From: Bradyrhizobium australiense
GTDB lineage: Bacteria > Pseudomonadota > Alphaproteobacteria > Rhizobiales > Xanthobacteraceae
DNA length: 64,000 bases
Direction: 5' to 3'
Assembly: GCF_013114825.1 (NCBI RefSeq)
Contig: NZ_JAAVLX010000002.1
Span: forward strand, 558,001-622,000
Below, piece after piece: positions 29,394 through 56,646 of this stretch (position 1 is its first letter; each line of letters starts with the position of its first letter). The notes under the pieces were generated by a model that saw only the letters and a list, made by a program, of their open reading frames with translations, made no database searches and was not told the origin of the DNA. The translations under genes and the position numbers were made by a program.

Positions 29394-31124
29394 TCACTTC
29401 TTGACAGCGAACACCCAGACGACGCCGCCCTGCGGCACGTTGTTCTCGATGCCAACATTATTCTGGGTCGCCAAAGCATCCTGGATGCGTTGCGCGTCAA
29501 CGCCCCACCCGGACTGGACCGCGATGTATTGCGTGCCGTCCACTTCGTACGCGACCGGCATGCCCATGATGCCGGAGTTGGTCTTTTGCTCCCAGAGCAG
29601 TTCGCCGGTCTTTGCGTGAAAGGCTCGGAACATCCGGTCGTTGGTGCCACCGACCAGCACCAGATCGCCAGCGGTCACCGTTACTGAGCCGAACAGATGC
29701 GATTTGGGGAAGGTATGCGACCAGACCTTCTTTCCCGTGGCCGGATCCCACGCCTGTAGCTCGCCAAAATGCGTCGCGTCCGGCCGAACCTTCAGGCCGA
29801 TATCTTCAGGCTTGGTCCCGAGCCAGAGCTGACCTGGTACCAGCGGCACCTTTTCGCCGGTGAAGCCGCCGCAGAAATTCTCGTTGGCGGGAACGTAGAC
29901 GTAGCGGGTCTTTTGGCTGTAGGCCGCGGACGGCCAATCCTTGCCGCCCCACAATGAGGGGCAGAATTCAACCCGCTTGCCCATGACCGGTTTGTGAGCC
30001 GGATCGACGATCGGCCGGCCCGTCTCCGGCTCAATGCCTTTCCAGACGTCGGTATGAACAAAAGGCCAGCCGGCGACGTAGTTGATTTTGTCCGGCTTAC
30101 GCTCGAGCACCCAGAAGATCGCGTTGCGTCCGGGGTGGATAAGGCTTTTGAAGGTGCGGCCATCCCTTTGCAGGTCGACCAGCATTGGCGCATCCACCTC
30201 GTCCCAATCCCAGGCATCGTTCTGATGGTATTGGAAGTGGTGTTTAATCTTGCCGGTATCAGGGTCGAGCCCGAGCACCGAGGTGGTGTAGAGATTGTCG
30301 CCGGGGTGAGTGTCTCCCGGCCACGGCGCGGCATTGCCGACGCCCCAATAGACCGTCCTGGTCTCGGGATCATAGTTGCCCGTCATCCACGCCGATCCGC
30401 CACCTGATTTCCAGTCGTCACCGCTCCACGTTTCGTGACCGGGTTCGCCCGGCCCCGGGATGGTGAAGGTCCGCCACAGTTCCTTGCCCGTGTCGGCGTC
30501 GAACGCGACGACGTAGCCACGAACGCCGAACTCGCCCCCCGAGCCGCCGACGATAACCTTGCCGTCGACCACCAGCGGCATCAGGGTCAGGTACTGACCC
30601 TTCTTGTAGTCCTGGACCTTGGTATCCCAGAGCACTTTCCCGGTCTTCGCGTCGAGCGCCACCACGTGATCGTCTGTCGTGGCCAAATACAGCTTGTCCT
30701 GCCACAGGCCCACGCCGCGGTTGGTTGGATGCAGTTGGAAGAGGTCCTCGGGGAGTTGCCGTTTGTATCTCCAGTACTCATCACCCGTCTTGGCGTTAAG
30801 GGCGATTACCTGACCTTGCGGGGTCGTGACGAACATGACGCCATTGTTGACGATCGGAGGCGACTCGTGTCCTTCCACCACGCCGGTCGAGAAGGTCCAC
30901 ACCGGTACCAGGTTTTTGACATTCGAGGTGTTGATCTGGTCGAGCGGGCTATATCCCTGCCCGTCGTAAGTCCGGCGATAGAGCATCCAGTTGCCCGGTT
31001 CCGGGTTCTTGAGGCGATCAGCGGTCACCGGACTGTAATTCTCGATCGGGCCTGCACCGGCGGCGATTGAGAAAAGGCATGTTGACGCGAACAAGCTCGG
31101 CACCAGCCACTGCTTTATGGTCAT
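29394..31124 (-). CDS. PQQ-dependent alcohol dehydrogenase without vicinal cysteines
   Basis: 576 residues with a signal peptide (cut near AAGAG, 25) and an eight-bladed quinoprotein propeller. Cofactor residues by position: Glu198 in GGEFG, Asn264 in GNAAPW, catalytic Asp306 and an extra Asp308 in WDWDEV; the extra Asp marks lanthanide-using enzymes such as XoxF and ExaF/PedH. The Cys-Cys pair that XoxF has before DTVNRG is absent; the equivalent stretch reads QLHPTNRG. It is a periplasmic alcohol oxidase. Substrate and metal are unproven. A Rieske protein gene lies upstream in the same direction. Confidence 0.85.
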   Translation of the reverse strand: MTIKQWLVPSLFASTCLFSIAAGAGPIENYSPVTADRLKNPEPGNWMLYRRTYDGQGYSPLDQINTSNVKNLVPVWTFSTGVVEGHESPPIVNNGVMFVTTPQGQVIALNAKTGDEYWRYKRQLPEDLFQLHPTNRGVGLWQDKLYLATTDDHVVALDAKTGKVLWDTKVQDYKKGQYLTLMPLVVDGKVIVGGSGGEFGVRGYVVAFDADTGKELWRTFTIPGPGEPGHETWSGDDWKSGGGSAWMTGNYDPETRTVYWGVGNAAPWPGDTHPGDNLYTTSVLGLDPDTGKIKHHFQYHQNDAWDWDEVDAPMLVDLQRDGRTFKSLIHPGRNAIFWVLERKPDKINYVAGWPFVHTDVWKGIEPETGRPIVDPAHKPVMGKRVEFCPSLWGGKDWPSAAYSQKTRYVYVPANENFCGGFTGEKVPLVPGQLWLGTKPEDIGLKVRPDATHFGELQAWDPATGKKVWSHTFPKSHLFGSVTVTAGDLVLVGGTNDRMFRAFHAKTGELLWEQKTNSGIMGMPVAYEVDGTQYIAVQSGWGVDAQRIQDALATQNNVGIENNVPQGGVVWVFAVKK

Positions 31125-38736: not shown

Positions 38737-39249
38737 TCATTTGGCTCCCATGCAGGCTTTTTCCGCCTGAGTGTAGGCGTCAGGTTTGTCTTCACGCTTG
38801 GCGGGCCGCACACGGCCAACCGCGTCATGCGCGCGGGCGCGCAGATAGACGTAGAGGTCGTCCATGTAGCAAGCGACATTCGGATTATCGCCAAACGCCG
38901 GCATGACGTTCTCTTGTGCGGTATTGACGTTCTTGCGACCGCTGGCGACCACCGCGAGGAAATCGCCGTAACTCATCGTCTTCAGTGATTCCTGCAGCGA
39001 CGGCGCGTAGGTCGATCCCATTCCGTCAGGGCCATGGCAGACGTGGCATTCGGAGTGATAGCGACGGTATCCGGAGTAGGTGTACCAATCGACCGTCCCG
39101 TCGGCCGCGACCTTGAAGGTCGGATTTCCTTCCTTGTCGAGATACTTGCCATCCTCGGACTTGACGGCGGTCGGATCGTCCGCAGCGTGGGCAACCGTTC
39201 CCGCCGCCACAAGCATGAGAGTGGCTGCAATCAAACAAATTCTACGCAA
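38737..39249 (-). CDS. xoxG: Cytochrome c of the XoxG type
   Basis: About 170 residues with a signal peptide (cut near AHA) and one haem site, CHVCHG, near residue 70, with MPAF as the likely distal Met. It takes electrons from XoxF. Its position between xoxF and the formaldehyde genes is the usual one. I placed the start at TTG 39249, seven bases after GAGGA; a GTG at 39255 is in frame but sits against that sequence. Confidence 0.88.
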   Translation of the reverse strand: MRRICLIAATLMLVAAGTVAHAADDPTAVKSEDGKYLDKEGNPTFKVAADGTVDWYTYSGYRRYHSECHVCHGPDGMGSTYAPSLQESLKTMSYGDFLAVVASGRKNVNTAQENVMPAFGDNPNVACYMDDLYVYLRARAHDAVGRVRPAKREDKPDAYTQAEKACMGAK

Positions 39250-39280
39250 GAGCACATCCTCGATATTGGATCTAGAGCAA

Positions 39281-39323: not shown

Positions 39324-41129
39324 TTACTGCGGCAGCGCGAATACCGTGAGGGTGCCGCCGAGTGCCGTGTAGTTGCTAAGCGCGGCATAGCCACCGACCG
39401 CGCCGAGGCCCGCAGTCGGGTCGGTCAGACCTGCGGCAAGGCCGATACCCGCCCAGCCGCCAACGCCGGAGAGCACCGCCACATACTGCTTGCCGCCGTG
39501 CTCATAGGTCGTGACGTTGCCGATGATGCCCGACGGAGTCTTGAACTTGTAAAGTTCCTTGCCCGTCTTGGCATCGACTGCCTTCAGATAGCCTTCCAGC
39601 GTGCCGTAGAACACCACGCCGCCGGCCGTCGCGAGCGCTCCCGACCACACCGAGAACTGCTCCTTGTTCGACCAGACGATCTTGCCGGTCTTGCCGTCCC
39701 AGGCAATGAAGTTGCCCATGTGACTCTCGCCTTGAGGCGGATACATCGAGAGCGTCGCGCCGACATAGGGCTGACCCGCCGTGTAGCTCACCTTGAACGG
39801 CTCATAGTCCATGCAGACGTGGTTCGTCGGCACGTAGAACAGTTGCGTGTCCGGCGAATAGGCTGCCGGCTGCTCGTCCTTGGTGCCGAGCGCGGCCGGG
39901 CAGATACCCTTGGTGTTCTTGTCTTCGCCACCCTTTTCCGTCGAATATTGATCCACGACCTTGGGACGGCCATAGGTCGGCGAGCTCTTGTTCATGTCGA
40001 CGCCAGTGGTCCAGTTGACCTTCGGATCATACTTCTCGGCGACCAGGAGTTCGCCGGTTGCACGGTCCATGGTGTAGGCCAAGCCGTTGCGGTCGAAATG
40101 CGTCAGCAGCTTGCGTTCCTGGCCGTTGATCTGCTGGTCGCTGAGGATCATTTCGTTGACGCCGTCATAGTCCCACTCGTCATGGGGTGTCATCTGATAG
40201 ACCCAGCGGGCCATGCCGGTATCCGGATTGCGCGCGAAGACGGTCATTGACCACTTGTTGTCGCCCGGACGCTGCTTCGGGTTCCAGGTCGAGGGGTTGC
40301 CCGAGCCGTAATAGACGAGGTTCAGACTGGGGTCATAGGACATCCAGCCCCATGTGCAGCCGCCACCAATCTTCCACTGGTCGCCCTGCCAGGTCTTGGT
40401 GCTCGAATCCTTGCCAACCGGCTTGCCGAGTTCGGTCGTCTTTTCCGGATCGACCATGATCTGATCGTCCGGCCCTTCGGAGAAGGCGCGCCATACCTGC
40501 TTGCCGCTCTTGAGGTCATAGGCCGTGACGTGACATTGCACGCCAAATTCGCCGCCGGAAATGCCGATCAGAACCTTGTCCTTGACGACCAGCGGCGCGG
40601 AGGTGCCCGTGGCACCCTTGCCCGGATCACCATTCTTGGTGCTCCACGCAACCTGCCCGGTCTTAGCATCGAGGGCGACCAGGGTGGTGTCAGCCTGATG
40701 CAGGAAGATCTTGCCGTCGCCATAGGCCAAGCCGCGATTGACGGTGTCGCAGCACATCACCGGGATGACGTTCGGATCCTGTTTCGGCTCGTACTTCCAG
40801 ACGATCTTGTTCTCCTGCGAAAGGTCAAGAGCATAGACCTTGTTCGGGAACGGCGTATGGACGTACATGATGTTGCCGATGATGAGCGGGCCGCCTTCAT
40901 GGCCACGCAGCACGCCGGTCGAGAAGGTCCAGGCGACCTGGAGCTTGCCAACATTGGATGCGTTGATCTGGTTAAGCTTCGAGTAGCGTGTATTGGCGTA
41001 GTCGCCGGCCGGCTGCACCCAGTCCTTTGGGTTCTGCGACATCTTGATCAGTTCTTCGTTGGCGTATGCGACGCCGACAACGAATGTCGCCATAGCGCCA
41101 AGACAGGCTGCGGATAGCACCTTGCGCAT
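39324..41129 (-). CDS. xoxF: Lanthanide-dependent methanol dehydrogenase
   Basis: 601 residues, the usual XoxF size, with a signal peptide cut near AYA (23). Vicinal Cys126-Cys127 (CCDTVNRG), Glu194, Asn278 and Asp320 are the PQQ/metal residues, and Asp322 in [10 protein letters not shown] is the extra ligand that separates lanthanide XoxF from calcium MxaF (which has Ala). It oxidises methanol in the periplasm. ATG 41129 follows GGAGGA. Its upstream region holds the 21-base-period direct repeat shared with pqqA. No mxaF is in the window. Confidence 0.97.
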
Positions 41130-46737: not shown

Positions 46738-47394
46738 ATGCGTGTTCTGATCGTCGACGATCATCCCATCGTTGCTTCGGGCTGCCGCACCGTGTTTGCC
46801 GATGAGCCGGAGATCGTGCTGCTCGAGGCCGCCGACGCGGAGAGCGGCGAACGCGTGTTCGTCGCCGAACGCCCCGACATCTGCGTCATCGATATCAACC
46901 TGCCGACGGTATCGGGGTTCGAACTGGCGCGGCGCATTCTTGCGCGCATTGCGTCGGCACGAATCATCATGTTCAGTATGAACGACGATCCGGTGTTCGC
47001 GGCGCGCGCCATTGAAATCGGCGCCAAGGGCTATGTCGCGAAGACGGGCGATCCGCAGGATCTGGTCGAGGCCATCCGCGAAGTCGGCAAAGGCGGGGTC
47101 TACCTGCCCTCTGCGATGGCGCGAAGCATCGCATTCGCCGGACCCGCATTCGCCCGCAGCCCGCTTGCAAAACTCACCTCGCGGGAGATGGAGATCCTGC
47201 GCCTGCTCAGCGCCGGCAAGAGTCTTTCCGAGATCGCGTGGCTGGTTCACTCCTCCTACAAAACCGTTGCCAACACATCGTCGATCATGCGCCAAAAGCT
47301 CGGCGTGCGAACTTCCGCCGAACTGGTGCGGCTGGCAATCGAAAGTGGCATTGGCGTAAGCGTGCCGCACGGCGCCGGAGTAGCAAGACCATGA
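46738..47394 (+). CDS. LuxR/NarL-family response regulator
   Basis: 218 residues. Receiver domain with phospho-acceptor Asp52 (CVIDINLP) and a C-terminal LuxR helix-turn-helix (LTSREMEILRLLSAGKSLSEIA). It is overlapped by fghA through ATGA, so regulator and formaldehyde enzyme are made together. FlhR/MoxX of Paracoccus control the same pathway, which supports a role in formaldehyde or methanol response. Confidence 0.9.
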   Translation: MRVLIVDDHPIVASGCRTVFADEPEIVLLEAADAESGERVFVAERPDICVIDINLPTVSGFELARRILARIASARIIMFSMNDDPVFAARAIEIGAKGYVAKTGDPQDLVEAIREVGKGGVYLPSAMARSIAFAGPAFARSPLAKLTSREMEILRLLSAGKSLSEIAWLVHSSYKTVANTSSIMRQKLGVRTSAELVRLAIESGIGVSVPHGAGVARP

Positions 47395-48236
47395 GCATGC
47401 AGACGGTTTCACTCAACAAGGCATATGGCGGAACGCAAGGCGTCTATCGACACGCCAGCCACCAAACGCGGACCGACATGACGTTCTCGGTGTATGTGCC
47501 TCCGCACACCGCCGGCACCAAGCTGCCGGTGGTCTGGTATCTTTCCGGCCTGACCTGCACCCATGCCAACGTGACGGAAAAGGGTGAATTTCGCAGCGCC
47601 TGCGCCGAACTCGGCCTGATCTTCGTTGCGCCCGACACCAGCCCGCGCGGCGAAGGGGTGCCGGGCGATCCTGCCAATGCCTACGATTTCGGGCTTGGCG
47701 CCGGCTTCTATGTCGATGCGACGCAGGAGCCGTTCGCCCGCAATTACCGCATGTGGAGCTATGTCACGGAGGAACTGCCGAAACTGGTCGCCGAAAGCTT
47801 TCCTGTCGATACAAACCGGCAATCCATTCTTGGCCATTCCATGGGCGGCCACGGCGCACTGACGGTCGCGCTGCGCCATCCCGGCCGCTACCGCGCGGCC
47901 AGTGCCTTTGCGCCGATCGTCGCACCTTCGCAGGTGCCATGGGGCATCAAGGCGCTCGGCGGTTATCTCGGCAGCGACCGGCAAACATGGCGCAAGCACG
48001 ATGCAGTGGCGCTGATCGAGGACGGCGCCAGATTACCCGATCTGTTGGTCGATTATGGCGATGCCGATCAGTTTCTGACCGAACAGCTTCGCCCGGAACT
48101 ACTGCAAGGGGCATGCGAGAAGGCCAAAATCCCCCTCACTTTGCGCCGGCAGCCTGGCTATGACCACAGCTACTACTTCATCTCCACTTTCATGGGCGAT
48201 CATCTGCGTTGGCACGCCGCACGCCTGAAGGGCTGA
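47391..48236 (+). CDS. fghA: S-formylglutathione hydrolase
   Basis: 281 residues of the esterase D family. Catalytic Ser150 in GHSMGGHG, with Asp in DYGDADQF and His in GYDHSYYF. It splits S-formylglutathione to formate and glutathione, closing the pathway begun by gfa and frmA on the other side. ATG 47391 overlaps the regulator stop. The frame is open further up inside the regulator gene. Confidence 0.96.
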   Translation: MSMQTVSLNKAYGGTQGVYRHASHQTRTDMTFSVYVPPHTAGTKLPVVWYLSGLTCTHANVTEKGEFRSACAELGLIFVAPDTSPRGEGVPGDPANAYDFGLGAGFYVDATQEPFARNYRMWSYVTEELPKLVAESFPVDTNRQSILGHSMGGHGALTVALRHPGRYRAASAFAPIVAPSQVPWGIKALGGYLGSDRQTWRKHDAVALIEDGARLPDLLVDYGDADQFLTEQLRPELLQGACEKAKIPLTLRRQPGYDHSYYFISTFMGDHLRWHAARLKG

Positions 48237-51332: not shown

Positions 51333-52180
51333 CGACATCGGCTACCATAACGCCAACCCAGCGCGGCCTCTCGCTCGCCGAATATCTCATCTGCCTGAAC
51401 GGCATCGTGTGGCGCGAGGCGCTTCGCTTCCTGCATCAGCGCGAACGCTTCATCTCGGCGCTGGTGCGGCCCTTGGTGTGGCTGTTCATCTTCGCCGCCG
51501 GCTTTCGTCAGGTACTCGGTCTCTCAATCATCCCGCCATACGAGACCTACATTCTGTACGAGGTCTATATCGCGCCCGGGCTGATGGCGATGATTCAGCT
51601 CTTCAACGGTATGCAATCCTCGCTCTCCATGGTCTACGACCGCGAAATGGGCAATATGCGGACATTGCTGGTGAGCCCGCTACCGCGATGGTTTCTCCTT
51701 TCCTGCAAGCTTCTGGCGGGAACCGCGGTCTCGCTGCTTCAGGTCTACGCATTCTTGCTGATCGCCTGGTTCTGGGATATCGCACCGCCCCTGGCCGGCT
51801 ATCTCACGGTGCTGCCGGCGCTGGTCCTCTCAGGCCTGATGCTCGGCGCGCTGGGTATGCTGATCTCTTCCGGCATCAAGCAGCTCGAGAACTTTGCGGG
51901 CGTGATGAACTTTGTCATCTTTCCGATGTTCTTTGCTTCCTCGGCGCTCTATCCGCTGTGGCGCATCCTGGAGAGCAGCCCGATGCTCTACTATGTCTGC
52001 CTCTTCAACCCGTTCACGCATGCGGTGGAGCTGATACGTTTTGCGCTGTATGGGCAAGTGAACTGGATCGCGCTCGCGGTCGTCGGAGGCTGCACGGTCG
52101 CCTTCATGATCGGCGCCATCTTCGCCTACGATCCATCGCGCGGTCTGATCCGCCGCGGGCCGGCCGGAGGCGAGACATGA
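51329..52180 (+). CDS. ABC-2 type permease, PQQ-associated
   Basis: 283 residues with six predicted membrane segments and the ABC-2 run REMGNMRTLLVSPLPRW. The GTG at 51329 overlaps the ATPase stop (GTGA); the frame is open further up inside the ATPase gene. Family members usually export, although the cluster is tied to metal uptake, so the direction is open. Confidence 0.9.
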   Translation: MTTSATITPTQRGLSLAEYLICLNGIVWREALRFLHQRERFISALVRPLVWLFIFAAGFRQVLGLSIIPPYETYILYEVYIAPGLMAMIQLFNGMQSSLSMVYDREMGNMRTLLVSPLPRWFLLSCKLLAGTAVSLLQVYAFLLIAWFWDIAPPLAGYLTVLPALVLSGLMLGALGMLISSGIKQLENFAGVMNFVIFPMFFASSALYPLWRILESSPMLYYVCLFNPFTHAVELIRFALYGQVNWIALAVVGGCTVAFMIGAIFAYDPSRGLIRRGPAGGET

Positions 52181-52788
52181 GGTACAAGACTGCGATCGCC
52201 GTATTTCTCGCCATTACGGCCATCAGCCGATATGGCCATGCGGCCGATCCACGCTATCCGGACTGGCCGTGCACGCAGGCCAAGGTGCCCGAAATTTCGC
52301 TTGCCGCGGTATGGGCCGGCCCGCCACTCGACGACATCTCGGGCAAATGGAAGGACGACGCCAAGGTCAGCGCGTTGGTCGCGAAGCTCGCGGCAAGGCG
52401 GACGCCGCTCGAGGAGGCGCAAAAGGCAATTGAAGAATATCTGAGTAGTGCAGCCGACAAGACCGCAAGCGGGAAACTGTTGTTTGCCGGCCTTTTCGAA
52501 TCCCTCAATGCCCAACGCTCCCAGGTTTTGAACGGCTTGGAGCGCGTCACCCGCAAGCAGCGCGAAGCGGCGGATAAAATCCGCACCGACACACTTACCT
52601 TGCAGGCTCTGCAGGGCGAAACCCCGCGGGACCAGGCGAAGATCGACGAGCTCGGCAATCAACTGGTGTGGGAGACCCGCATCTTCGAAGACCGGCGGAA
52701 CGTCATCAAATTCGTCTGCGAGGTGCCGACGGCGATCGACCAGCGGCTGTTCGCCCTCGGACGAACGATTCAGCAGGAGATCGAATAG
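52177..52788 (+). CDS. Periplasmic protein of the PQQ-associated ABC cluster
   Basis: 203 residues: signal peptide (cut near GHA) and a helical, charged mature part with two Cys (PCTQ and KFVCEV) that could form a disulfide. No domain recognised. Overlaps the permease gene by ATGA, so it is the fifth gene of the run. An exported protein occupies the same place in lut clusters. Confidence 0.8.
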   Translation: MRYKTAIAVFLAITAISRYGHAADPRYPDWPCTQAKVPEISLAAVWAGPPLDDISGKWKDDAKVSALVAKLAARRTPLEEAQKAIEEYLSSAADKTASGKLLFAGLFESLNAQRSQVLNGLERVTRKQREAADKIRTDTLTLQALQGETPRDQAKIDELGNQLVWETRIFEDRRNVIKFVCEVPTAIDQRLFALGRTIQQEIE

Positions 52789-52791
52789 TCG

Positions 52792-53367
52792 CTAACGCGG
52801 CGATGCGGTCTTCTCACCGGTCCGCGGCTCCGGCTGCGATTCCGCCAGCGCCAGACCGGCGCGTTCCCATCCATCGGTCCCGTCGGGGTACCACGCCACA
52901 TTGGAATAGCCGTAGCCGAGAATGCGCTTCGCCGCATTCCAGGACATCCAGCAATCGGCCAGACAGTAGACCACCACCACCGTCGCATTGTTGCCCGCCG
53001 TCGCGCGGACGAGCCCGCGCCGCAGATAGTCTTCCGTCACGGCCGCGAGCTTTCCGTAGCCGGTGTCCGGCAGCCACACGCTGCCGGGAATGTTGAGCCG
53101 CGGCTTGTCGCGCCAGATCGTACCTTCGGGAAGATTTGGCGGCTTCGGGGCCCGCGGCAGTACATCGATGAATACGCCGGCCTTGGCTCGCCAGATCGCC
53201 TCGGCCTCCGCGGTCGTGAGAACACGTGCGCCGGCAAGACTCGCGGGAACCGGCGCGCGATAATCCTCGATGCGGTAGCCGTCGGGTTCGGGAGGTCTTT
53301 CCTGCGCGAAAGTCGAGACGATAAATGGGAATGCCGCAAGGATCAGGCCTGCGAGCGTTTCTCTCAT
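52792..53367 (-). CDS. Rhodanese-like PQQ-associated CXXCW protein
   Basis: 191 residues with a signal peptide (cut near FAQ, 22) and a rhodanese-like fold. The motif YCLADCW at 134-140 gives the CXXCW signature of a family linked to PQQ-dependent catabolism. Converges on the ABC cluster with three bases between the stops, and overlaps xoxJ by four bases. A thiol or persulfide role is likely, inferred from the two Cys and the fold. Confidence 0.88.
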   Translation of the reverse strand: MRETLAGLILAAFPFIVSTFAQERPPEPDGYRIEDYRAPVPASLAGARVLTTAEAEAIWRAKAGVFIDVLPRAPKPPNLPEGTIWRDKPRLNIPGSVWLPDTGYGKLAAVTEDYLRRGLVRATAGNNATVVVVYCLADCWMSWNAAKRILGYGYSNVAWYPDGTDGWERAGLALAESQPEPRTGEKTASPR

Positions 53368-54248
53368 GGCGTTTTGGTTGCCGTCTCCGCACCGATCGGC
53401 CGGTCATTCTCGTCGAGCAAGGGAACGCCGAAGTCCAAGAGTATCTTGTTGATGGCAGGCTGGTTCTCCTGGATCAGGCGATTGAGCAGCCGCTTCCAGT
53501 TCTGGTCAGCCCCCCGGACCCCCATGCCGATGCGATATGCCAGTCGCGGGCCAGTCTTTTCCTTCACGAGAGGCGTGACGTGGAGCGGCGGATTCGCTTT
53601 CCGCGCATAGTATCCCGCCATCGGTCCCCACAGGATGCCGGCGTCGATCTGCCCCGACACCAGGTCGCCGATCATGGCCTCCGCCGACGAATCCAGGCGG
53701 GTATCGACCATCAATTGATAGGGCTTGGCATTCGCCATCAGGCCGTTGACTGCCATGTTGGTGGCAGGCGGCGTGCCGGCGACGATGCCGACATGCTTGC
53801 CCTTCAGGCGCTCGTCTTCCAGCGTTGCAACGTCTTCAAGGCCGCTACCCTGCTTGGCAACCAGCGCATAGGCAGTGCGGTAATAGGGATTGGTGCCCTG
53901 GACCAGGTCGTCGCCCTGCGGAAAGCCCATGATGACGTCGCAACGATGGGCGCCCAAGGTCATGCGGACGAAGCCGGTCGCCTGCGGGAAGTACGTGTAG
54001 TCCAGCTTCTTGTGCAGCTTCTCGGCGAATAGTTCAGCAAGCTTGTTCTCGAATCCCTCGCCCTTCTCGTTGGAGAACGGCAAATTGTGCGGGTCGGCGC
54101 AGACGCGCAGCACTTTGGGATCGACGAGTTCGATCGATACATCGCCGGTATCGTTGATCTGCGCGCGGGCGGGGGTATGACCGAAAAACGCGGCGATGAT
54201 CGCCACGAGGAAAATCGACAGCCAGCACTTTCGCCCGGCATTTGTCAT
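53364..54248 (-). CDS. xoxJ: XoxJ-type periplasmic binding protein
   Basis: 294 residues from ATG 54248: signal peptide, then a family 3 solute-binding fold (LRVCADPHNLPFSNEKGEGFENK). This is the MoxJ/XoxJ group that helps methanol dehydrogenase activation. The frame is open upstream for 1,155 bases, but that stretch is antisense to the zinc hydrolase gene and is not coding. Operon with the CXXCW protein downstream. Confidence 0.9.
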   Translation of the reverse strand: MTNAGRKCWLSIFLVAIIAAFFGHTPARAQINDTGDVSIELVDPKVLRVCADPHNLPFSNEKGEGFENKLAELFAEKLHKKLDYTYFPQATGFVRMTLGAHRCDVIMGFPQGDDLVQGTNPYYRTAYALVAKQGSGLEDVATLEDERLKGKHVGIVAGTPPATNMAVNGLMANAKPYQLMVDTRLDSSAEAMIGDLVSGQIDAGILWGPMAGYYARKANPPLHVTPLVKEKTGPRLAYRIGMGVRGADQNWKRLLNRLIQENQPAINKILLDFGVPLLDENDRPIGAETATKTP

Positions 54249-54470
54249 CGAAAGCTTCTGCACTTCCGGCCCGCCTTGTTGCCATTTCAACTGGTATCGG
54301 CAACCTCGACGAACCGAAGTTCTATAGAAGCCGCAGACACGCAAAATGCTATGCTTGTCAATTGGAGGCTGCAACAGGAATAATCCTCGAGGTGAATGGC
54401 CGTTTGTGCTGCGATGCAAACGATAAACGGAATTGCCGATCGCGCTTCGTGGTGAGACGGAGGCCGAAAT

Positions 54471-55394
54471 ATGGCTCATCCCGCAGTGACGCTTGCCGCG
54501 ATAGCGATGCTCGCGGCGGCGACAGCCTCGCAAGCACAGCAACAGGAGTTGCCGGTGAATTCCGTTGCAGACGGCGTATTCGTGTACAACGGCCAAACCG
54601 CGCAGATGACGCGCGAGAATGACGGCGCGATCGCCAATGTCGGGTTCATCGTTGGCCGGGATGCCGTCGCGGTGATCGATACGGGCGGCAGCCTCCGCGT
54701 GGGACGACAATTGCTGGCAGCCATTCGCGCCCGGACCAATAAGCCAATCCGGTACGTCATCAATACGCACGGCCATCCCGATCACGTCTTCGGCAACGGC
54801 GCTTTCGTTCAGGACGGAATGATTTTTGTCGGCCACGCGAACCTGCCGCGCGCGCTGGCGGCGCGCGGACAATTCTATCTCGACGCCTTTCGCCGCACGA
54901 TGGGCGATCAATTGATCGACGAGATACGCATCGTGCCGCCAACGCTGCTCGTCAGCGGCACACTCAATCTGGATCTCGGCGGGCGAATGCTCGTCTTGCG
55001 GGCGTGGCCTGCCGCGCATAGCGATTGCGATCTCACGGTGTTTGACGAAAAATCCGGAACTCTGTTCGCGGGCGATCTGGTGTTTCTCGCCCACACGCCC
55101 GTGCTGGACGGCAGCATCCGCGGCTGGCTGGCCGTCATCGGTGAACTCGGCGCCTTGCCTGCGGAGCGCGTGGTTCCCGGTCACGGTCCCGTGAGCGAAT
55201 GGCCGGCGGCCCTCGCGGACGAACGTCGTTATCTCGAAACGCTGGCCACAGATGTGCGTGGGCTCGTCGCCCGCGGCGCGCCGATCGCGGCGGCAGGCAC
55301 GGCTGCGAGCGCCGAGCGATCCCGTTGGGAATTGTTCGACGACTACAACACCCGCAACGCAACCGCGGCATTTTCGGAAATTGAATGGGAATAG
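54471..55394 (+). CDS. Zinc metallohydrolase of the quinoprotein relay system
   Basis: 307 residues: signal peptide (cut near SQAQ) and a metallo-beta-lactamase fold with HGHPDH at 100-105 and further metal ligands (AAHSDCD, GHGP). SoxH-like. Found beside SoxYZ-like carriers in PQQ clusters. Divergent from xoxJ. A hydrolytic step on a carrier-bound thioester or persulfide is possible but unproven. Confidence 0.86.
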
Positions 55395-55450
55395 CCCGCG
55401 CATTGCCCTATATTGCGCGTGTTGCTTCCATCCGCGTGAAGGTCGTGACC

Positions 55451-56269
55451 ATGTCCGGATATCTGTTCCGCCTGTTCAGCGTCGCTTGCTTTCTGCTGTT
55501 CGGCGCGCCGCTGGCGCCGGCGGCAGAGGCAAATGACCCCTGGCCCGGCCTGGTGCAGGACATCTTCAACAATCGTCCGATGAACGATGGCAGCGAGGTG
55601 ATCGGCATTGAAATGCCCGCGCGCGCCGAGGATGCCGCAATCGTCCCGGTGACCTTGCGAACGAAGCTTTCGCCCGGCGATGGCAGGCAGGTACTCAGCA
55701 TTACGCTTGTGATCGACCAGAACCCCGCCCCGATGGCGGCAAAATTCCAGCTCGGGCCGGACGCCAAGGTCTCGGAAATCTCCACCCGCGTCCGCGTCAA
55801 CAATTATACCGATGTCCATGCGGTGACCGAACTCAGCGACGGCAAACTTTACATGATCAAAACTTATGTGAAGGCCTCCGGCGGCTGTTCGGCGCCCGCC
55901 GCCAAGAATGCCGACGAGGCCAAGGGCAGGCTCGGCCAGATGCGCTATCGGCAGTTCGCGAAAGCCGGTGAAGGCCCCGCCAGCGGCATCCGCGAGGCGC
56001 AGATAATGATCGGCCATCCCAACAATTCCGGCCTGCAGATGGACCAGGTCACCCACCTCTATGTCCCGGCATTTTTCGTCAACGAACTGCGGCTTTGGCA
56101 GGACGACAGCCTGGTGTTGACGATGGAAGGCGGCATTTCAATTTCGGAAGATCCCAATATCAGATTCACCTATGTCTCGAATGGCGCTAAACGTTTCCGC
56201 GCCGAGGCGAAGGATACAGAGGGGCACGTCTTCCAGCGCGAATGGAAGATGGATGATTCGGGGACTTGA
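55451..56269 (+). CDS. SoxYZ-like carrier protein of the quinoprotein relay system
   Basis: 272 residues: a SoxY-like half with the carrier Cys146 in the GGC motif (KASGGCSAP), fused to a SoxZ-like half from about 180. In sulfur oxidation SoxY carries a sulfur chain on the Cys of GGCGG. Here it sits with a rhodanese-like and a SoxH-like protein, with no sox genes. ATG 55451 gives a good signal peptide; the frame starts at 55385, overlapping the hydrolase. Confidence 0.86.
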   Translation: MSGYLFRLFSVACFLLFGAPLAPAAEANDPWPGLVQDIFNNRPMNDGSEVIGIEMPARAEDAAIVPVTLRTKLSPGDGRQVLSITLVIDQNPAPMAAKFQLGPDAKVSEISTRVRVNNYTDVHAVTELSDGKLYMIKTYVKASGGCSAPAAKNADEAKGRLGQMRYRQFAKAGEGPASGIREAQIMIGHPNNSGLQMDQVTHLYVPAFFVNELRLWQDDSLVLTMEGGISISEDPNIRFTYVSNGAKRFRAEAKDTEGHVFQREWKMDDSGT

Positions 56270-56286: not shown

Positions 56287-56646
56287 TCAGAAGCAGCGCA
56301 CCTCCGCTTCGGCCTGGGCCCGCCTGAGCTCGTTGAGCGCGCCTGCCGCCTGCTCGGAGGTGCGGAACTGGCTGCCCAGATTTCCCCGGACCTGCGACAT
56401 GCTGAGCACGGTTTCGGCCGTGACATAGCGCTCATACGGCACGAGCGAAGCGATAACGTCGATTGAACAGGAGCATTGCTCGATCGCTTGCCGCGTCTCG
56501 CCATTCGCTTTCAGACAGCCAAAAGCGTATTCGACGCGTGCCGCCGTCGGATAGTCGTTAAGGTCCTGGGCACGCGTGATCCCTGTCATCGCCATTAGCG
56601 CCGTCAACGCGGCGACAATAGGTCGTACCGATCCGACAAACGTCAT
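56287..56646 (-). CDS. Small secreted conserved protein of unknown function
   Basis: 119 residues: signal peptide cut near TRAQ (26), then a helical part with four Cys (FGCLK, CSC, RCF) that could make two disulfides. No domain recognised. It lies between the SoxYZ-like gene and the ABC importer, read the other way. Confidence 0.7.
   Translation of the reverse strand: MTFVGSVRPIVAALTALMAMTGITRAQDLNDYPTAARVEYAFGCLKANGETRQAIEQCSCSIDVIASLVPYERYVTAETVLSMSQVRGNLGSQFRTSEQAAGALNELRRAQAEAEVRCF

Follow-up and report, generated by a model that had tools for sequence, protein, structure and literature searches.

A stretch of 64,000 nucleotides from Bradyrhizobium australiense (assembly GCF_013114825.1, contig NZ_JAAVLX010000002.1, positions 558,001 to 622,000; the window in the following) encodes between positions 52,792 and 56,269 a rhodanese-fold protein, a SoxH-like metallo-hydrolase and a fused SoxY-SoxZ-like carrier, arranged around a gene for a XoxJ-like periplasmic binding protein and located in a cluster with a XoxF-type pyrroloquinoline quinone (PQQ)-dependent dehydrogenase (Table 1). 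Lanthanide dehydrogenases of the XoxF type provide a main route by which methanol is oxidised, and little is understood of the proteins that assist them. A module which is tied to lanthanide dehydrogenases and yet dispensable narrows the hypotheses and points to residues for testing. The three genes of the trio lie where a preliminary description of the window had placed them, and all of them score far above the curated NCBIfam cut-offs, with a match strength beyond chance. The carrier reaches 275.5 bits against the cut-off of 140 of TIGR04557, 'SoxYZ-like carrier', and covers profile positions 1-226 of 226, the hydrolase 398.4 bits against 280 for TIGR04559, 'quinoprotein relay system zinc metallohydrolase 2', and the rhodanese-fold protein 237.6 bits against 128.05 for TIGR03865; the XoxJ-like protein scores 311 bits against 212 for TIGR03871. 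All three trio proteins are predicted to be exported, as judged by eye from their N-termini. NCBIfam groups TIGR04557, the zinc metallohydrolases 1 and 2 (TIGR04558 and TIGR04559) and TIGR03865 as a 'quinoprotein relay' set, so that the trio is already named as quinoprotein-associated and has been discussed in print; to judge from the sequences, the trio of the window is an ordinary member of this set, with nothing distinguishing found.

Table 1. Genes of the PQQ dehydrogenase cluster in the window (aa, amino acids; ABC, ATP-binding cassette).
Positions	Strand	Product	Family	Features
38737..39255	-	cytochrome c		adjoins XoxF; XoxG label given by position
39324..41129	-	XoxF-type PQQ methanol/ethanol dehydrogenase	TIGR03075	vicinal CC; HDEWDYDG (lanthanide-type Asp)
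47391..48236	+	S-formylglutathione hydrolase FghA	TIGR02821	
48347..52180	+	PedA1-A2-B-C type operon	TIGR03863, TIGR03866, TIGR03864, TIGR03861	binding protein, beta-propeller, ATPase and permease, respectively
52177..52788	+	unnamed 203-aa protein		last in the ABC operon; recurs in related clusters
52792..53367	-	CXXCW protein, rhodanese fold	TIGR03865	active-site loop C135-L-A-D-C139-W140
53364..54248	-	XoxJ/MoxJ-like periplasmic binding protein	TIGR03871	
54471..55394	+	SoxH-like metallo-beta-lactamase-fold hydrolase	TIGR04559	ligands H100, H102, D104, H105, H183, D202, H238
55451..56269	+	fused SoxY-SoxZ-like carrier	TIGR04557	arm KASGGC146SAP
56287..56646	-	unnamed 119-aa protein		convergent with the carrier; invariant C44, C58, C60, C118
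56718-60006	+	ABC transporter with SsuA/NMT1-like binding protein, then pentapeptide-repeat protein		

The distribution of the module was assessed in one sample of 299 genomes from the phylum, profile-searched with four families (carrier, CXXCW protein, hydrolase and dehydrogenase); since up to 11 CXXCW, seven hydrolase and four dehydrogenase candidates were scored per genome, absences are not certain. The carrier exceeds its cut-off in 54 of the 299 genomes and is a single open frame in 33, the carrier genomes of this analysis, while the matches in the other 21 genomes contain stop codons, were read as adjacent soxY and soxZ and were excluded. A PQQ methanol/ethanol dehydrogenase is found over the cut-off in 67 genomes including all 33 carrier genomes, and the CXXCW protein in 30 genomes, every one inside the carrier genomes. 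Ignoring relatedness, the carrier is thus present in 33 of 67 dehydrogenase genomes and in 0 of 232 others (Fisher 1.6e-25), and the CXXCW protein in 30 of 33 carrier genomes and in 0 of 266 others (Fisher 3.5e-38). In 22 of the carrier genomes the hydrolase scores above the TIGR04559 cut-off; the other 11 possess a carrier-adjacent homologue of 135 to 207 bits, and each of four of them tested against TIGR04558 has a hydrolase over that cut-off (350 to 421 bits versus 300). Overall, a relay-type hydrolase homologue accompanies the carrier in 33/33 genomes. The recurrence of these families with PQQ dehydrogenases, stated in the preliminary description, is borne out by all carrier genomes.

The dehydrogenases of all 67 genomes were typed by the residue two positions after the catalytic Asp, using the rule, which we take to hold, that WDxD marks the lanthanide type and WDxS/T/A the calcium type. 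Typing took in all listed over-cut-off dehydrogenases of the 34 carrier-less genomes and part of those in carrier genomes. A lanthanide-type Asp is present in 32 of 33 carrier genomes, but in only 18 of 34 carrier-less dehydrogenase genomes (p 3.4e-5, relatedness ignored and four dehydrogenases of carrier genomes, doubled by overlapping stretches, counted twice), several of the latter 18 showing atypical contexts around the Asp. In the lone carrier genome in which no lanthanide type was seen, G054, four of eight candidates were scored. As far as these residues tell, the module leans toward lanthanide enzymes, yet is dispensable for them.

Counted without the four doubled dehydrogenases, all but one of the 50 dehydrogenases from carrier-less genomes retain the vicinal cysteine pair, as do 46 of 49 from carrier genomes, where the three exceptions are two enzymes with QL and one gap in a partial sequence. 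Because the pair is kept in 49 of the 50 enzymes of carrier-less genomes, the trio is not required for the vicinal disulfide. Disulfide formation as the core function was hence rejected as a general need. More broadly, the trio could act in maturation or repair, forming, repairing or proofreading the vicinal disulfide or aiding PQQ insertion, as already proposed in PMC12997753. The association with PQQ dehydrogenases, the two-cysteine motif of the rhodanese-fold protein and a thioredoxin neighbour of its gene in five loci agree with such a role; it is nevertheless doubtful, as the pair forms without the trio and the metallo-hydrolase is left without an obvious role, though the trio may still act in repair under stress.

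The carrier matches Pfam SoxY (1.7e-32) and SoxZ (2.5e-23), and solved structures of SoxY and SoxZ align with its two halves, the carrier cysteine included (PDB 4uwq, 2ox5, 2oxg). Its nearest relatives, of 91-92% identity, are found in Bradyrhizobium. Cys146, whose codon occupies 55886-55888 as counted from the ATG at 55451, is invariant in 30/30 diverse members and in 151/151 carrier open reading frames of a larger, redundant set, which holds several Bradyrhizobium near-copies and loci that possibly represent the same genome twice. The likeness to the SoxYZ of thiosulfate oxidation consists in the two domains and the aligned carrier cysteine. In difference to the latter, whose arm is a terminal GGCGG, the carrier is one fused chain, which places the GGC arm in its interior, as a rule with S/T-x-P next to it, and the genome of a fused carrier need not encode other SoxY or SoxZ proteins.

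The only SoxY/SoxZ matches that the carrier profile finds in 18 of the 33 carrier genomes are fused carriers; a dependence on other SoxY/SoxZ was not found, and the carrier appears not to be tied to other sox genes. The trio might be an offshoot of ordinary thiosulfate oxidation by Sox and have come to lie near xox genes by chance, as its SoxY, SoxZ and SoxH-like kinship and two further soxYZ-like loci in the genome could suggest. This explanation is largely refuted by those 18 genomes, which have fused carriers only, and the association is with PQQ dehydrogenases (33/33); as PMC11237559 also argues to the contrary, it is highly improbable. The earlier statement that the fusion occurs without sox genes holds for the window, where the carrier profile has no other SoxY/SoxZ match, but not for the source genome, with its SoxY-/SoxZ-like matches at C6:29691-30348 and C1:598060-598649; SoxA/B/C/D/X were not searched.

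The name 'CXXCW' given to TIGR03865 by NCBIfam is at odds with the residues of the family itself. The CLADCW sequence, read as a CXXCW motif in the preliminary description, is C-x3-C-W, and this spacing is found in 96/96 family members of a redundant set and C-x2-C-W in 0/96, with 51 dereplicated sequences inspected for the motif; the motif had thus to be corrected, the profile match itself being firm. An AlphaFold model of the protein (mean predicted local distance difference test 86.7) places C135 right after strand 131-134 and before helix 140-151, presumably where rhodaneses carry the catalytic cysteine. Searched against the PDB by structure, the model obtained 13 matches with E up to 0.001, which are rhodaneses, sulfurtransferases, a beta-lactamase plus rhodanese domain protein (two chains) or uncharacterised proteins, the best being mostly rhodaneses and sulfurtransferases, and by sequence the protein gave weak matches only, the rhodanese ones with E 0.17 to 0.63. 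According to the model, the TIGR03865 protein has a rhodanese fold whose active-site loop carries an extra cysteine and a tryptophan rather than a CXXC of the thioredoxin type, and is a putative sulfurtransferase. An exported thioredoxin-fold gene adjoins the gene of this family in five loci (L045, L046, L048, L051, L052) from three genomes of one genus, with a CPIC motif in L046.

The hydrolase of the window keeps all seven metal ligands (H,H,D,H,H,D,H), and is predicted to bind zinc and to hydrolyse a group bound to the carrier. Among 147 aligned hydrolases, 137 are encoded within 3 kb of a carrier, of which 110 have the full ligand set, 18 show N,H,D,Y,H,G,H in its place and nine are R-E-F-like variants. 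In a tree of 87 hydrolases, from which near-copies above 0.8 similarity, carrier-less stretches and open reading frames below 250 aa had been left out, the N-H-D-Y and the R-E-F group are each set off by one branch (support 95/98 and 100/98) and are separate from each other, and the fewest losses of the metal site amount to two; the tree is unrooted, its bootstrap is not fully settled and two R-E-F rows are long. Three tested N-H-D-Y proteins score 406, 407 and 429 bits and so surpass the 'zinc metallohydrolase 1' (TIGR04558) cut-off of 300, and the one R-E-F protein tested stays below the cut-offs of both TIGR04558 and TIGR04559. Members of two clades that lost the metal site are still named zinc enzymes. 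The N-x-H-x-D-Y form with the Asp-to-Gly exchange, seen in the family labelled f33, recurs at L303:8941-9870 and L304:8917-9867, and both of these Azospirillum records still annotate a zinc enzyme.

All 27 degenerate carrier-adjacent hydrolases come from f33, in which the CXXCW protein is below the cut-off in 19/19 carrier genomes, with weaker matches in five of the 19 (best 51 bits). A strict coupling of CXXCW loss to zinc-site loss, initially backed by these 0/19 and 27/27 counts, was dropped because in the alphaproteobacterium Azospirillum thermophilum one cluster encodes both an N-H-D-Y hydrolase and a CXXCW protein, and because five f33 genomes have an intact hydrolase beside a carrier with no CXXCW protein over the cut-off. 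The hydrolase of Azospirillum lipoferum is also of the N-H-D-Y form. The carrier cysteine outlives the metal site of the hydrolase, and the two losses are not tightly linked. A covalent relay on the carrier cysteine, as put forward in the preliminary description, fits the association with PQQ dehydrogenases in 33/33 carrier genomes and the 151/151 conservation of the cysteine, but hydrolysis as its universal final step is weakened.

Two further readings have been considered. Formaldehyde or some other aldehyde could be trapped on Cys146 in the form of a thiohemiacetal, which the quinoprotein or a partner would oxidise to a thioester and the metallo-hydrolase would cleave; this would be the periplasmic counterpart of the glutathione/FghA route. 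The presence of FghA in the same cluster, the fghA and S-(hydroxymethyl)glutathione dehydrogenase genes between PQQ dehydrogenase and carrier in Sinorhizobium medicae and the full metallo-beta-lactamase ligand set in the window would be in line with an aldehyde as cargo. However, the rhodanese-fold protein is left without a role, two clades have lost the zinc ligands with the carrier cysteine kept, and the two best PDB matches of the hydrolase, an unspecified superfamily member and a hydrolytic dehalogenase, are not named thioesterases and do not discriminate between a sulfur and an acyl substrate; an aldehyde relay is consequently considered unlikely. With a similarly low probability, the thiol carrier would be the core of a thiol-redox or adduct-holding device without any hydrolytic relay, in which the hydrolase of two clades would now be a metal-poor docking or clamp protein and an exported four-cysteine protein encoded next to the carrier would be an unrecognised partner of lanthanide dehydrogenases.

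The closest described system is the ped cluster of Pseudomonas putida, which, according to a 2026 review (PMC12997753), likewise comprises a rhodanese-domain protein, a SoxYZ-like carrier, a SoxH-like hydrolase, PedA1-A2-B-C, a pentapeptide protein and quinoprotein dehydrogenases; the hydrolase of the window is of type 2 (TIGR04559). In that text PP_2666, PP_2677 and PP_2678 are handled as one set, the effects in randomly barcoded transposon sequencing (RB-TnSeq) are reported as minimal in a medium deficient in rare earths, and disulfide formation, cofactor stabilisation or shielding of PQQ from sulfur nucleophiles are proposed. Similarly, PMC11237559 (2024) links SoxYZ fusions to a PQQ dehydrogenase or xoxF and to soxH, and proposes that methanol dehydrogenase is shielded from thiosulfate. 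The fusions SoxYZ-S2 and SoxYZ-S4 of lucinid symbionts described there, located beside a PQQ dehydrogenase or xoxF and near soxH, resemble the carrier of the window by description, not by a sequence comparison. Both papers cite that thiosulfate harms growth of Hyphomicrobium on methanol, but not on formate. The accessible parts of PMC12423496, PMC12875217 and PMC3797975 contain no direct test of the trio, and in the portions of the open-licence literature at hand no experiment on the trio was found beyond the RB-TnSeq cited in PMC12997753. The view of the preliminary description that the chemistry of these families is undescribed stands insofar as no description was found, but hypotheses are in print already, and its relay or repair idea is, on the evidence of these excerpts, not new given the related proposals in PMC12997753 and PMC11237559.

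We tentatively favour, with considerable reserve, the trio as an optional periplasmic sulfur-carrier module that would protect the PQQ of alcohol dehydrogenases, mainly of the lanthanide (XoxF/ExaF/PedH) kind. The swinging-arm Cys146 would covalently take up reactive sulfur, such as sulfite, thiosulfate or persulfide, that would form adducts with PQQ if left free. The C-x3-C-W protein with its rhodanese fold might load or unload sulfane sulfur of the carrier, with C139 resolving C135, and the SoxH-like hydrolase, wherever it retains its metal site, could free the oxidised part. A sulfur carrier is preferred because SoxY/SoxZ and rhodanese, two of the three folds, serve sulfur transfer, and the third protein, the hydrolase, is SoxH-like and scores in the SoxH-related families TIGR04559/TIGR04558. 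The co-occurrence with PQQ dehydrogenases, the invariant carrier cysteine and C-x3-C-W motif, the bias towards lanthanide-type enzymes, the thioredoxin-fold neighbour in five loci and the thiosulfate effect cited for Hyphomicrobium also count in favour. We infer that the cargo is sulfur, which way it is transferred and that the purpose is protection. Several observations weigh against this proposal. As the 18 carrier genomes with no SoxY/SoxZ match besides fused carriers indicate, the thiosulfate pathway need not be present, and the carrier is missing from as many genomes with a lanthanide-type dehydrogenase. A three-step relay cannot be universal because CXXCW proteins stay below the cut-off in all f33 carrier genomes and zinc ligands were lost in two hydrolase clades. 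The minimal RB-TnSeq effects, obtained without rare earths (PMC12997753), the indirect assignment of the cargo and co-occurrence counts blind to relatedness add to these points. The trio probably serves as an optional side-system for sulfur handling or protection and is not an essential part of the enzyme.

A fresh candidate partner is the unnamed four-cysteine family represented by the 119-aa protein encoded next to the carrier. Its four cysteines are invariant in 81/81 sequences; it has no match in Pfam or NCBIfam, and against the PDB sequence matches are no better than E 0.98 and fold matches no better than E 1.1. With up to 15 candidates scored per genome, the family is present in at least 26 of the 299 genomes, all 26 of which possess a lanthanide-type dehydrogenase. 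Twenty-two of them are also carrier genomes, and in the remaining four a lanthanide-type dehydrogenase is encoded at a distance of 0.3 to 15 kb from the gene. Of 77 named loci, 68, mostly from Bradyrhizobium, have the gene no more than 1.5 kb from the carrier (three of 80 named loci were excluded because their sequence continues for less than 1 kb beyond the carrier); in other genomes it is located apart from the carrier. The four-cysteine protein is best viewed as Xox-associated and not as a strict member of the trio. In several lineages its gene is adjoined by that of a 234-aa protein without Pfam match (L053:10555-11259 (-), L306:10158-10850 (-)).

The wider cluster between 38.7 and 60 kb also encodes an AraC-type regulator, a TonB-dependent receptor and, assigned by eye, a sensor kinase with a response regulator; following XoxF, the order is AraC-type regulator, TonB-dependent receptor, kinase/regulator, FghA, PedA1-A2-B-C type operon and the gene of the 203-aa protein. 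This latter protein, with 71 homologous sequences among the fetched loci, has weak matches only, all below the cut-offs, among the profile families. A second protein of the PQQ dehydrogenase family is encoded at 29394-31124 (-) of the window, with an NDAWDWDEV context and QL where the vicinal cysteine pair would be expected. The ABC transporter and pentapeptide gene downstream of the four-cysteine gene adjoin the module in many Bradyrhizobium loci.

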